Source: Ilumatobacteraceae bacterium (GTDB lineage: Bacteria > Actinomycetota > Acidimicrobiia > Acidimicrobiales > Ilumatobacteraceae). Taken from it: a DNA stretch of 64,000 nt. The stretch lies in the NCBI GenBank assembly GCA_021299715.1, contig JAJTEL010000001.1, positions 333,171 to 397,170 of the forward strand. Direction: 5' to 3'. Positions 13,900-37,463 of the stretch are shown here, in pieces. The notes under the pieces were generated by a model. The model ran no database searches. It saw only the letters and a program-made list of their open reading frames with translations, and had not been told where the DNA came from. Each line of letters opens with the position of its first letter. The stretch's first letter is position 1. A program made the translations under genes and the position numbers.

Positions 13900-14245
<346 letters not shown>

Positions 14246-35051: not shown

Positions 35052-35708
35052 ATGACTTCTGCGGATCGCACGTGGCAGCGCCACGATTGGCAGGGAACTG
35101 CCGCAGATTTCCATTCGCTCGAACCATCTTCGGAGCGCGGATTGTGGTGGTGCAACGTAGACACTCCCGCACTCATTGTTGGCTCGTCTCAGGACGTATC
35201 TGCTGTGAATGCGGTGTGTGCCGCAGAAAAAGGAATAGACGTTGTGCGACGTCGAAGCGGGGGAGGCATTGTGTTTGTGCATCCCTCCGATTCGGTGTGG
35301 ATAGACATCACCATTCCACGTGACGATTCACTGTGGGTTGATGACGTTGCTGAATCAATGTTGTGGCTGGGTTCGGTATTCGTTCATGCATTGTCACCAT
35401 GGCTAAAAACTTCTGTGTATACGCACAAATTTTCAGCGGAAGACTTCGGGCGCGACATCTGCTTCGTCAGTCATTCTCCTGGCGAAGTATTCGCGGGCGA
35501 TGCGAAGGTCGTTGGCATTAGTCAACGACGCACTCGTGACGGCGCCCGTTTTCAGTGCGTGATGTATCGCCAGTGGAATCCACATGAGTGGGCATCATGT
35601 GTTCACGCACACGACGCGGCCCGTGCCGCTAACGATGTGGCTGTTGCCACCGTTGGGGCAACCGCGCACGACATCGTGACTGCTGTGCACAACGCGCTTC
35701 CGTTGTAA
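35052..35708 (+). CDS. Lipoate/biotin ligase-like protein (LplA family)
   Basis: This is a 218-residue protein of the BPL/LPL fold. DVVRRRSGGGIVFVHPSDSV is the lipoyl-AMP-binding motif, and FAGDAKVVGISQRRTRDGAR includes the catalytic-type Lys. It is shorter than full LplA and lacks the accessory C-terminal domain, as is common in actinobacterial paralogues. It could attach or transfer lipoate or octanoate to E2 or H proteins. It ends at 35708 just before the mraZ control region. Confidence 0.8.
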   Translation: MTSADRTWQRHDWQGTAADFHSLEPSSERGLWWCNVDTPALIVGSSQDVSAVNAVCAAEKGIDVVRRRSGGGIVFVHPSDSVWIDITIPRDDSLWVDDVAESMLWLGSVFVHALSPWLKTSVYTHKFSAEDFGRDICFVSHSPGEVFAGDAKVVGISQRRTRDGARFQCVMYRQWNPHEWASCVHAHDAARAANDVAVATVGATAHDIVTAVHNALPL

Positions 35709-35788
35709 TTCACCCCCCCCCGCTCCTTCCTGCACCGAAGATGCATCTGTCTTTTGCGGCGCCCGCGCCCACCCGTGCCCAGGTTCAT

Positions 35789-35864
35789 TGGGGTCCGTGG
35801 GGTCCGGTGGGGGGAGTGGTGGAGAAAAGTGGGGGGAAAAGGTTGACATAGGGGGAAAGTGGGG
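35789..35864 (+). promoter_or_regulatory. Putative MraZ operator array
   Basis: TGGGG cores start at 35789, 35798 and 35808, spaced 9-10 bp, about one helical turn. Two further AAAGTGGGG copies lie at 35827 and 35856. MraZ is known to bind direct repeats of TGGGN5 (Escherichia coli) or AAAGTG-type boxes (mollicutes) before its own gene. The array overlaps the promoter at 35843-35872, so self-repression of the division cluster is likely. Confidence 0.7.
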
Positions 35865-35872
35865 AATAAAGT
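35843..35872 (+). promoter_or_regulatory. Promoter of the mraZ/division cluster
   Basis: A consensus TTGACA at 35843-35848 is followed after 18 bp by TAAAGT at 35867-35872, and one AAAGTGGGG box lies inside the spacer. mraZ begins 44 bp after the -10 element. This is the best sigma-70-type promoter seen in the window. Confidence 0.65.
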
Positions 35873-35916
35873 AAAAACCGAGGTGGAGGCGGAGAACTCC
35901 CCCGGGAGGCGGAGAA

Positions 35917-36333
35917 GTGTTCGTAGGAGTGCATGAGCGACAGCTCGACCCAAAGGGTCGTCTTGCGCTGCCTGCTGCATTCCGTCCACGTCTTGAGCCA
36001 CGTTGTTATCTCTCGTTTGGTCGCGACAAGTGCATCGATGTGATGACCGCCGAGGCCTTCGAACGAGAAGCCGCAGACATCTTGGAAAAAGTTCGTCGTG
36101 GCGAATTGGGCCGAAGTGAATCTCGTGCGCTTGCTGTGAGCACTGTTGAAGCAACGATTGATGCACAGGGTCGCATCACCATTGACGAGAAGTTGCGTGA
36201 GTACGCAGGAATCTTGTTGGGCGCAAAAGTCACCGTTGCAGGTTCTTTTGACCGAGTTGAAATTTGGGAACCAGAGCGCCACGAACGCAACATCGGTGCT
36301 GGTACCGAAATGATCGCTGGAGCGGGCGCGTGA
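35917..36333 (+). CDS. mraZ: Transcriptional regulator MraZ
   Basis: This is a 138-residue protein with two SpoVT/AbrB-like repeats. The first has HERQLDPKGRLALPAAFRPR with the DxKGR motif, and the second has EATIDAQGRITIDEKLREYA with the matching DAQGR. MraZ forms a ring of subunits that binds direct repeats before the division cluster. The GTG at 35917 follows GGGAGG. It is the first gene of the cluster and likely controls its own promoter. Confidence 0.95.
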   Translation: MFVGVHERQLDPKGRLALPAAFRPRLEPRCYLSFGRDKCIDVMTAEAFEREAADILEKVRRGELGRSESRALAVSTVEATIDAQGRITIDEKLREYAGILLGAKVTVAGSFDRVEIWEPERHERNIGAGTEMIAGAGA

Positions 36334-36378
36334 TCGCCGATGCTTCGAATGTCCTATCAACACTCTGGAGGTCCACGA

Positions 36379-36492
36379 CCTCTGGCAGTCTCCCGGATGG
36401 CACGGTGGTTAGCTCCAACTCCGCCCGCTGCCATCGCGCACGTACCGGGGATAAATCCGGACGGCATTTGCTGTCCGGGAGGCTGCCAGGGG
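36379..36492 (+). ncRNA. Structured 5' leader of rsmH, candidate mraW RNA motif
   Basis: Bases 36379-36397 can pair with 36474-36492 over 19 bp, with two G-U pairs. A second hairpin of 10 bp (36456-36465 with 36470-36479, loop ATTT) competes with the inner part but leaves the outer 12 bp intact, so a junction with side arms is also possible. The only Shine-Dalgarno-like sequence before rsmH (AGGGG, 36488-36492) lies in the 3' arm. Position and lineage match the mraW motif described in actinobacteria. Confidence 0.72.
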
Positions 36493-36500
36493 CCGACGGA

Positions 36501-37463
36501 ATGTCTCGCATGAGCGACACCTTCATTCACGAACCAGTGATGCTGGACGAGATCTTGTCGGTCTTTGCCGACATGAACGATGGTGTCTATCTGGATGCAA
36601 CATTGGGTGGTGCTGGACACGCAAGCGCAGTCCTCTCAGCGCATCCCGGCGTGTCGCTATTGGGTATTGATCACGACGACGTTGCACTTGCAGCGGCGTC
36701 GTTAGTTCTCACCGATGCTGGTCTTGGTGGACGTGCGACCCTCCGGCGCGCCCGCTTTGATTCGGTGTCACGTGTCGTGGCCGAAGAGGGGATCGGTTCG
36801 TTGGCCGGCGCCCTCTTCGACCTCGGCGTGTCGTCTCCACAGTTCGACGTTGCCGAGCGAGGCTTCTCGTATCGATTTGATGCGCCACTCGACATGCGCA
36901 TGGATCGTTCGCAGTCGATTAGTGCAGATTCTGTGGTGAACGGATACGACGAATATGCGTTGGCAGACATGTTGCGCCGAAATGCAGATGAGAAGTTTGC
37001 GGGTCGTATCGCACGCGCAATAGTTACAGCTCGCCCAATTCGTTCAACAACTCACTTGTCAGAAGTTGTGGTGTCGGCAATACCTGCACCAGCTCGACGT
37101 CGGGGTGGTCATCCAGCAAAGCGCACATTTCAGGCAGTTCGCATAGAGGTCAATGCTGAATTAGACATTCTGCCTGGAGCACTTCGCGACACCATCGCAC
37201 TTCTTGCTCCTGGCGCATGTCTTGCAGTGCTGTCGTATCACTCTGGCGAAGATCGAATTGTGAAATCGGTAATGCGCGCCGCAGAAACCGGTAATTGCAC
37301 ATGTCCCTCGCATCTTCCGTGTGGTTGTGGCGCAGTGCGAACTGTTGAGCGCGTGCGTGTGTCTCGCGAGGCAACTCGTGAAGAACAAGTTCGCAATCCC
37401 CGAAGCACGTCGGCTCGTCTGCGTGTTGTGCGCAAACTGTCTGTTGTAAAGGCGACTAAGTAG
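36501..37463 (+). CDS. rsmH: 16S rRNA (cytosine(1402)-N4)-methyltransferase
   Basis: This is a 320-residue SAM-dependent enzyme (MraW) that methylates C1402 of 16S rRNA. HEPVMLDEILSVFADMNDGV and YLDATLGGAGHASAVL hold the SAM loop; FDLGVSSPQFDVAERGFSYR and MRMDRSQSISA are strictly family. HPAKRTFQAVRIEVNAEL and a Cys-rich CTCPSHLPCGC region follow. Start may be ATG 36501 or 36510. A frame extending to 36264 is rejected because it crosses the structured leader. Confidence 0.95.
   Translation: MSRMSDTFIHEPVMLDEILSVFADMNDGVYLDATLGGAGHASAVLSAHPGVSLLGIDHDDVALAAASLVLTDAGLGGRATLRRARFDSVSRVVAEEGIGSLAGALFDLGVSSPQFDVAERGFSYRFDAPLDMRMDRSQSISADSVVNGYDEYALADMLRRNADEKFAGRIARAIVTARPIRSTTHLSEVVVSAIPAPARRRGGHPAKRTFQAVRIEVNAELDILPGALRDTIALLAPGACLAVLSYHSGEDRIVKSVMRAAETGNCTCPSHLPCGCGAVRTVERVRVSREATREEQVRNPRSTSARLRVVRKLSVVKATK

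Follow-up and report, generated by a model that had tools for sequence, protein, structure and literature searches.

Does the gap between mraZ and rsmH in this Ilumatobacteraceae genome hold an RNA that controls rsmH, and if so, what might that RNA respond to? In many bacteria, mraZ and rsmH are the first genes of the division and cell wall cluster, and in the window (the whole 64,000-nucleotide stretch of DNA that was analysed) both genes lie on the + strand: mraZ, with a GTG start, at 35917 to 36333 (NCBIfam TIGR00242, E 2.4e-16, 60 bits, under the model cut-off of 98), followed by rsmH at 36501 to 37463, with its ATG at 36501 or 36510 (TIGR00006 equivalog, E 7.9e-82; frame open from 36264). 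Downstream of rsmH, we found FtsL-, PBP/FtsI-, MurE-, and MraY-like proteins, the FtsL- and PBP/FtsI-like ones under their model cut-offs. A preliminary description had read the gap as an rsmH leader in which a 19-bp stem hides the ribosome binding site and competes with a 10-bp hairpin, and had tied this leader to the mraW RNA.

We found that the + strand of the gap is predicted to fold into an RNA of three helices, P1, P2, and P3, with an energy of -77.8 kcal/mol, compared to -53.8 (SD 4.1) for 200 dinucleotide shuffles (z = -5.9), none of which equalled it. The 19-bp stem is indeed present (36379 to 36397, CCTCTGGCAGTCTCCCGGA, paired with 36474 to 36492, TCCGGGAGGCTGCCAGGGG) and runs on unbroken to 36402/36469 in the predicted fold, so that P1 comprises 24 bp with arms at 36379 to 36402 and 36469 to 36492; the minimum free energy helix reaches out to 36372 with mismatches. 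Within P1, the fold displays two elements that were absent from the preliminary description: a P2 hairpin (36403 to 36436) with an invariant loop, and P3 (36438 to 36465). P2 consists of 10 pairs with one bulge (36403 to 36413 with 36427 to 36436) and carries a 13-nt apical loop, UCCAACUCCGCCC, at 36414 to 36426, which contains the near-invariant core CUCCRCCC (CUCCGCCC in the window) at 36419 to 36426. P3 likewise has 10 pairs (36438 to 36449 with 36456 to 36465) enclosing a GAUAAA loop at 36450 to 36455; the class consensus surrounding this loop reads GGGGAGAMAUCC. Both arms of P1 and P2 and the 5' arm of P3 were placed by fold and covariation, the 3' arm of P3 by the fold, the P2 loop by fold and alignment, its core by an alignment of 77 leaders, and the P3 loop by folds and alignment. 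The 10-bp hairpin exists as well, at 36456 to 36465 with 36470 to 36479 (loop ATTT): its 5' arm is the 3' arm of P3, and it has bases 36474 to 36479 in common with the stem. No U run, as would mark an intrinsic terminator, directly follows P1 on its 3' side, where the sequence past 36492, read by eye, is CCGACGGAATGTCTCGC.

Comparison with relatives showed that the pairing is kept while its letters change. Leaders were supplied by rsmH homologues at 80 loci from named contigs and 30 loci of the same family. In alignment A1, which holds 21 leaders and was aligned without structure (MAFFT) but from which the counted structure itself came, 94.4% of 945 cells were paired and 93 two-sided changes occurred, versus a mean of 30.6 in shuffled alignments (0 of 500 as high). 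The larger alignment A3 (79 leaders, no second row for any locus) had 92.2% of 3478 cells paired, with two-sided changes at 42 of 45 pairs; these amounted to 568 cells versus 154.1 in shuffles, none of the 500 shuffles was as high on any of five measures, and slid controls paired at most 48.4% of cells. A separate count was made on alignment A2, where 14 opposite-strand rows had been dropped beforehand and 100 loci were kept, 77 of them nonredundant after an 85% identity filter. Here, 91.7% of 3320 cells were paired (shuffle maximum 74.9%, 200 shuffles), and 599 two-sided changes were counted (maximum 198 in 200 shuffles). Both A2 and A3 were fitted to the covariance model R1, built on A1, and thus lean towards the R1 structure. 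The sequence of P1 varies across A3 with its pairing intact, and its length, at a median of 25 enclosing pairs, stayed between 21 and 28 in 102 folded leaders. The covariation asked of both stems in the preliminary description was accordingly seen for P1 in all three counts, whereas the competing hairpin showed a single two-sided change.

Strand asymmetry indicated that the conserved object is an RNA and not a DNA palindrome, since G-U pairs are numerous in A3 when the + strand is read, and the window reaches 125 bits on that strand versus 34.8 bits on the opposite one. Opposite-strand matches arise, at far lower scores, because the stem is nearly palindromic. We regard a conserved RNA element in the rsmH leader as almost certain. 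That the conserved stretch is instead coding, as a leader peptide or as extra N-terminal residues of RsmH, is suggested by the rsmH frame of the window, which is open upstream to 36264, yet we consider it barely conceivable and rejected it: relative to rsmH, the loop core occupies each of the three frames (52/35/28 in 115 rows, which include the nonmember L067), a stop interrupts the rsmH frame between P1 and rsmH in 31 of the 115 rows, the P2 loop has no third-position freedom in 77 leaders, and the massive pair covariation in A3 argues against a coding reading.

How widely is the element distributed, and does it stay with rsmH? A match to the rsmH homologue was found in 139 of 150 genomes of the same family, and the core CTCCGCC[CT]GC occurred within 230 nt upstream of rsmH in 49 of 111 loci, some genomes being represented twice. 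Of the 62 loci without the core, 50 (L032 to L081) are named as Clostridia and kin, Coriobacteriia, or Actinomycetes and 12 are nearer, among them L030, which carries the element further upstream. Model R1, seeded with the 21 leaders of A1 and given a structure from RNAalifold and single folds, recovered all five of the distant leaders that had been kept out of its seed (L019, L021, L028, L031, and L110), while 21 of the 32 sources in that held-out search gave no match. At E 1e-3, R1 matched 168 of 296 genomes of the class, which is Acidimicrobiia by the titles of near relatives' records; in the phylum sample it matched 15 of 396, all within the class. Model R2, built on 79 class-wide leaders with the window itself left out, matched 206 of 296 class genomes at E 1e-4 (among those of good quality, 159 of 210; by genus, 122 of 148); the other 90 of 296 had no R2 match at this threshold, where the stricter filtering misses weak matches. 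R2 gave 24 matches among the 396 genomes of the phylum sample, 23 of them within the class. The single match outside, L231, lies in a 2.6 kb stretch that contains neither rsmH nor mraZ and was taken as chance.

Within the class, the element was accompanied by rsmH in the loci that we read. Among the 168 R1-positive class genomes, 92 were read (30 loci, 60 by place, and 2 more), and rsmH was in the stretch in all of them; it was likewise present in every locus up to L210 taken by R1 or by place, in 7 class loci from the R2 phylum matches, and in another 6 of 6 loci. The mraZ stop lies 3 to 222 nt upstream of P1 (median 50), and translational coupling via an overlap with mraZ was rejected, as none of 101 leaders overlaps that gene. 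In seven loci of the same family, counted among the 12 nearer ones, where the element is absent (L094, L101, L104, L106, L107, L109, and L111), rsmH directly follows or overlaps mraZ, an arrangement that suggests loss of the whole leader there. Three loci labelled Bifidobacterium breve (L008, L013, and L015) have an rsmH and a leader of the kind seen in Ilumatobacteraceae, and these metagenome bins look mislabelled. The open-licence literature searched, as far as its text was available, contained no description of this element. Apparently, we are dealing with an undescribed family of cis-acting rsmH leaders that spans the class, and the element very probably acts as a cis-regulator of rsmH.

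The obvious known counterpart is the mraW RNA (RF01746, Rfam 15), which likewise occupies the leader of the same gene (mraW is rsmH) in Actinomycetota, with a long G+C-rich stem and a C-rich apical loop. The proposed tie to it did not survive a search with the RF01746 model: there was no match in the window, none up to E 10 in a permissive scan of 35700 to 36700, none genome-wide, where C. glutamicum served as the positive control, and none up to E 5 in 12 class relatives. Membership is set at a covariance-model score of at least 50 bits, which the element did not reach. In a phylum sample of 198 genomes, RF01746 matched 10, 8 of them over the cut-off, and all ten lie outside Acidimicrobiia. 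Conversely, R1 had no match up to E 10 in 15 loci that belong to other parts of the phylum (L219 to L228, L067, L060, L074, L076, and L078), of which L219 to L228 had been chosen by their RF01746 match (L227 and L228 under the cut-off) and L067 also matches that model. When R2 was run over 31 loci, comprising those 15 and 16 more, it gave three weak matches (E 0.1 to 8.1), one of which is an mraW locus (E 8.1, 21 positions covered). The loops differ too, with ACUUCCCC in the mraW RNA versus ACUCCRCCC here, and align no better than shuffles (p 0.24 to 0.66); unlike the mraW RNA, the element here carries two hairpins on P1. Membership was therefore rejected, RF01746 being unmatched and R1 and R2 finding no credible mraW locus, and the two RNAs may be analogous or very distantly related. 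Permissive Rfam matches at or near the site (H19_3, DUF3800-IV, MIR8622, and MIR918) fell far under their gathering scores and were taken as chance. In the available text of PMC2864571, the structured mraW leader has been listed for Actinomycetales since 2010, whereas the element here belongs to the class Acidimicrobiia; the literature searched, to the extent of its available text, contained no tested function for the mraW leader. Another structured RNA is known from the leader of the same gene cluster, namely UpsM of Rhodobacteraceae, which, according to the available part of its report, sits before mraZ, has an intrinsic terminator, and yields an sRNA (PMC5089854); the element here, unlike UpsM, lies between mraZ and rsmH and has no U run after P1.

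We then asked what the fold does to the start of rsmH. In the window, the ribosome binding site is predicted to be hidden, as had been claimed: the SD-like AGGGG (36488 to 36492) lies within the 3' arm of P1, 8 nt upstream of the ATG at 36501, with a probability of being unpaired of 0.00 to 0.01 per base, and the AUG abuts P1. A pattern scan of 36334 to 36515 returned two other SD-like words, GGGAGG at 36477 in the same 3' arm and GGAGG at 36367. As a shared design, the claim found no support. Across 76 nonredundant leaders, the nearest in-frame rsmH start lies inside P1 in 17, within 12 nt past its end in 7, and more than 12 nt downstream in 52, counts that are rough, as translation need not begin at the nearest start. 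An SD-like word with an ATG or GTG is found in the P1 3' arm in 39 of the 76, in the rsmH frame in 25. On these alignments, predicted occlusion of the ribosome binding site is one arrangement among members of the family and not a shared principle. An AUG about 10 nt inside the P1 3' end, in the context ATGAGCG, recurs in L125, L128, L135, L138, L139, and L151; in all of these except L128 it is outside the set of open in-frame rsmH starts, and it may mark a relic start or a short ORF.

The same evidence bears on a sensor of ribosome methylation, in which a stem at or near the start would make rsmH translation need ribosomes methylated at C1402, so that RsmH output would follow the state of its own product, with the loop serving some other role. 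The fully paired SD of the window and the 17 of 76 leaders whose nearest start lies inside P1 fit such a sensor, as does a 2026 B. subtilis preprint reporting that normal output from transcripts whose start region is covered by a stem-loop requires MraW/RsmH (PMC13317604, available text). The 52 of 76 leaders with a start more than 12 nt past P1 speak against it, it leaves a near-invariant unpaired loop unexplained, and the available text of the preprint (PMC13317604) does not treat rsmH itself. For the family as a whole, we consider this sensor quite unlikely, while for members with a start in P1 it is a serious rival.

The switch itself, in which P1 and the competing hairpin at 36456 to 36479 would gate access to the SD, fared worse. 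Both structures are present in the window, and the competing hairpin is predicted to form in partial transcripts, although only in those ending near 36475 to 36482. Forcing it upon the whole leader costs 4.4 kcal/mol (-82.9 versus -87.3 kcal/mol). In the alignment, 76.7% of its 189 cells were paired, a value equalled by 499 of 500 shuffles, and relatives conserve P3, which covariation favours, and not the competing hairpin. With no excess pairing or covariation, we rejected the competing hairpin as a conserved element, and the switch is very unlikely.

P1 alone would also suit RNase III, which processes duplexes of about 20 bp or more and needs no invariant apical loop. Cleavage would part mraZ from the rsmH transcript and would free the SD where it lies in P1. 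The length of P1 in the 102 folded leaders agrees with this, as does the drift of its sequence under constant pairing, but an RNase III site gives no reason for the invariant loop on P2, and we judge it an improbable explanation of the element.

It is the P2 loop that forms the most conserved part of the element, far above the stems. Among 77 nonredundant leaders, the positions of CUCCRCCC were kept as C in 76 of 76, U in 77 of 77, C in 77 of 77, C in 77 of 77, G in 73 of 77 (A in the other 4), C in 77 of 77, C in 77 of 77, and C in 75 of 77. The loop stayed intact even in four loci of 30 to 31% GC (L240, L241, L243, and L244), where CUCCGCCC is kept on a more A+U-rich stem; these four genomes are close kin of one genus and count as one case. 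They are about 1 Mb in size, and their rsmH is only 30.5 to 32.4% identical to the query. Deviations were UCCUCC[GA]CCC in family f4 and an extra C in L242. P3 was more variable: its paired core has letters in 63 to 67 of the 77 leaders, and in several families it is replaced by a short joint, as in the P3-less members L181, L185 to L187, and L189 to L199, where the joint is GCCAGCGC or another short one.

On comparative grounds, the combination of a covarying stem with an unpaired loop that hardly changes suggests a ligand. We searched for one among nucleic acid partners. Within -800 to +600 of 75 loci, the loop had 36 pairing sites versus 29.3 for shuffled probes, with no clear excess; its complementarity to 16S rRNA was no better than that of shuffles; and its likeness to the C strand of the mraZ promoter, assessed for the window loop, was not significant (p 0.08 to 0.58), so that a copy of that strand was rejected. 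One 50-nt bin upstream of mraZ, about 550 to 600 nt before the loop core, held 6 fully complementary sites (G-U allowed) versus 1.3 shuffled in the same 75 loci. The view that the loop is recognized by some ligand other than RsmH (a metabolite, a small RNA, or another protein), through which rsmH is controlled, has points on both sides. The conservation of the loop, far above that of the stems, is what a binding site would show, and no finding here singles out a ligand; little sign was seen of a pairing partner within the region searched, and the 16S complementarity and promoter likeness stayed at the levels given above. We hold such a ligand to be rather doubtful.

A likeness to 16S rRNA itself, rather than to its complement, was noticed once the loop was known and is to that extent post hoc. 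Using the 16S genes of two relatives for the comparison, we observed that ACUCCGCCCGCU matches 16S best at ACACCGCCCGUC, the segment containing C1402, with 9 of 12 positions identical; we take ACACCGCCCGUC to be E. coli 16S 1396 to 1407. In the genome of the window itself, the 16S gene (L211) runs into a contig end at precisely GTACACACC, immediately ahead of the C1402 segment. Shuffled cores reached 9 of 12 over C1402 in 5.5% of cases (10974 of 200000), the string CCGCCCG was kept by 2317 of 300000 shuffles (0.8%), and AC.CCGCCCG by 119 of 300000 (0.04%). Local alignment of loop and 16S gave p 0.01 to 0.07 with three loop versions tried, and 19-base versions of the loop match other 16S places equally or better. 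The invariant U of the loop differs from 16S A1398, and the G that matches position 1405 is A in the 30 to 31% GC loci and U in some f4 members. The mraW loop ACUUCCCC has no such likeness to the C1402 site. For the P3 loop, a copy of the 16S 690 loop was considered and dropped: 9 of 12 positions agree, but 605 of 1000 shuffles reach 9 of 12 somewhere in 16S; at the site itself, 384 of 20000 were as good. C1402 is the 16S site methylated by RsmH, and, in the available text of the same report, recombinant RsmH and RsmI act on 30S subunits and not on protein-free 16S (PMC5053481). The likeness of the P2 loop to the target of RsmH around C1402 is, as far as these comparisons go, statistically weak and only suggestive.

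We tentatively propose that the leader is autogenous, that is, a member of an undescribed Acidimicrobiia family in which CUCCRCCC is the recognition site and RsmH binds the loop and represses rsmH, a possibility that we nonetheless rate below even. Our preference for autogenous control comes from the tie between the element and rsmH in the loci read; the identification of RsmH as the ligand is speculative and held with similarly limited confidence. In this proposal, the roughly 25-bp P1 would present P2 with its CUCCRCCC loop as the recognition site, P3 would be an accessory hairpin that some lineages lack, and the leader RNA would control translation or processing of rsmH. Surplus RsmH, free of maturing 30S subunits, would bind the P2 loop, which would imitate the 16S segment around the target C1402. 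In leaders with the start inside or next to P1, bound RsmH could then repress rsmH by locking that stem; in the others, it could do so through altered decay or initiation. A stronger version, in which RsmH controls itself by binding and perhaps methylating the C1402-like loop, so that the enzyme and perhaps the division genes would be tied to the supply of unmethylated 30S subunits, seems to us unlikely.

Autogenous control of ribosomal proteins relies on the protein product binding, in the leader of its own transcript, to a replica of the site that it occupies on rRNA, and the proposed control by RsmH would, by analogy, work alike. The product here differs in being an rRNA methyltransferase, with a 16S-site likeness that is only suggestive and a binding that is putative. 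The cmpA and isp genes of B. subtilis resemble the element in that stem-loops in their start regions are linked to RsmH activity, but they are other genes, and no conserved loop is mentioned for them in the available text (PMC13317604). If the autogenous reading is true, an rRNA methyltransferase would here be regulated by way of a mimic of its target that its own mRNA carries, and if RsmH or ribosome methylation is what is sensed, 30S maturation would be linked to the division and cell wall cluster. As a second rsmH leader family, the element differs from the mraW RNA in class and in fold, and its nearly invariant loop and more than 200 natural variants make it a precise target for tests.

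Two further features of the window lie outside the leader. The mraZ promoter region at 35825 to 35880 contains TTGACA amid GTGGGG-type repeats, as in many relatives, an arrangement that fits MraZ operator boxes. A bacterial class A RNase P RNA was found on the - strand at 13902 to 14239 (RF00010, 239 bits).
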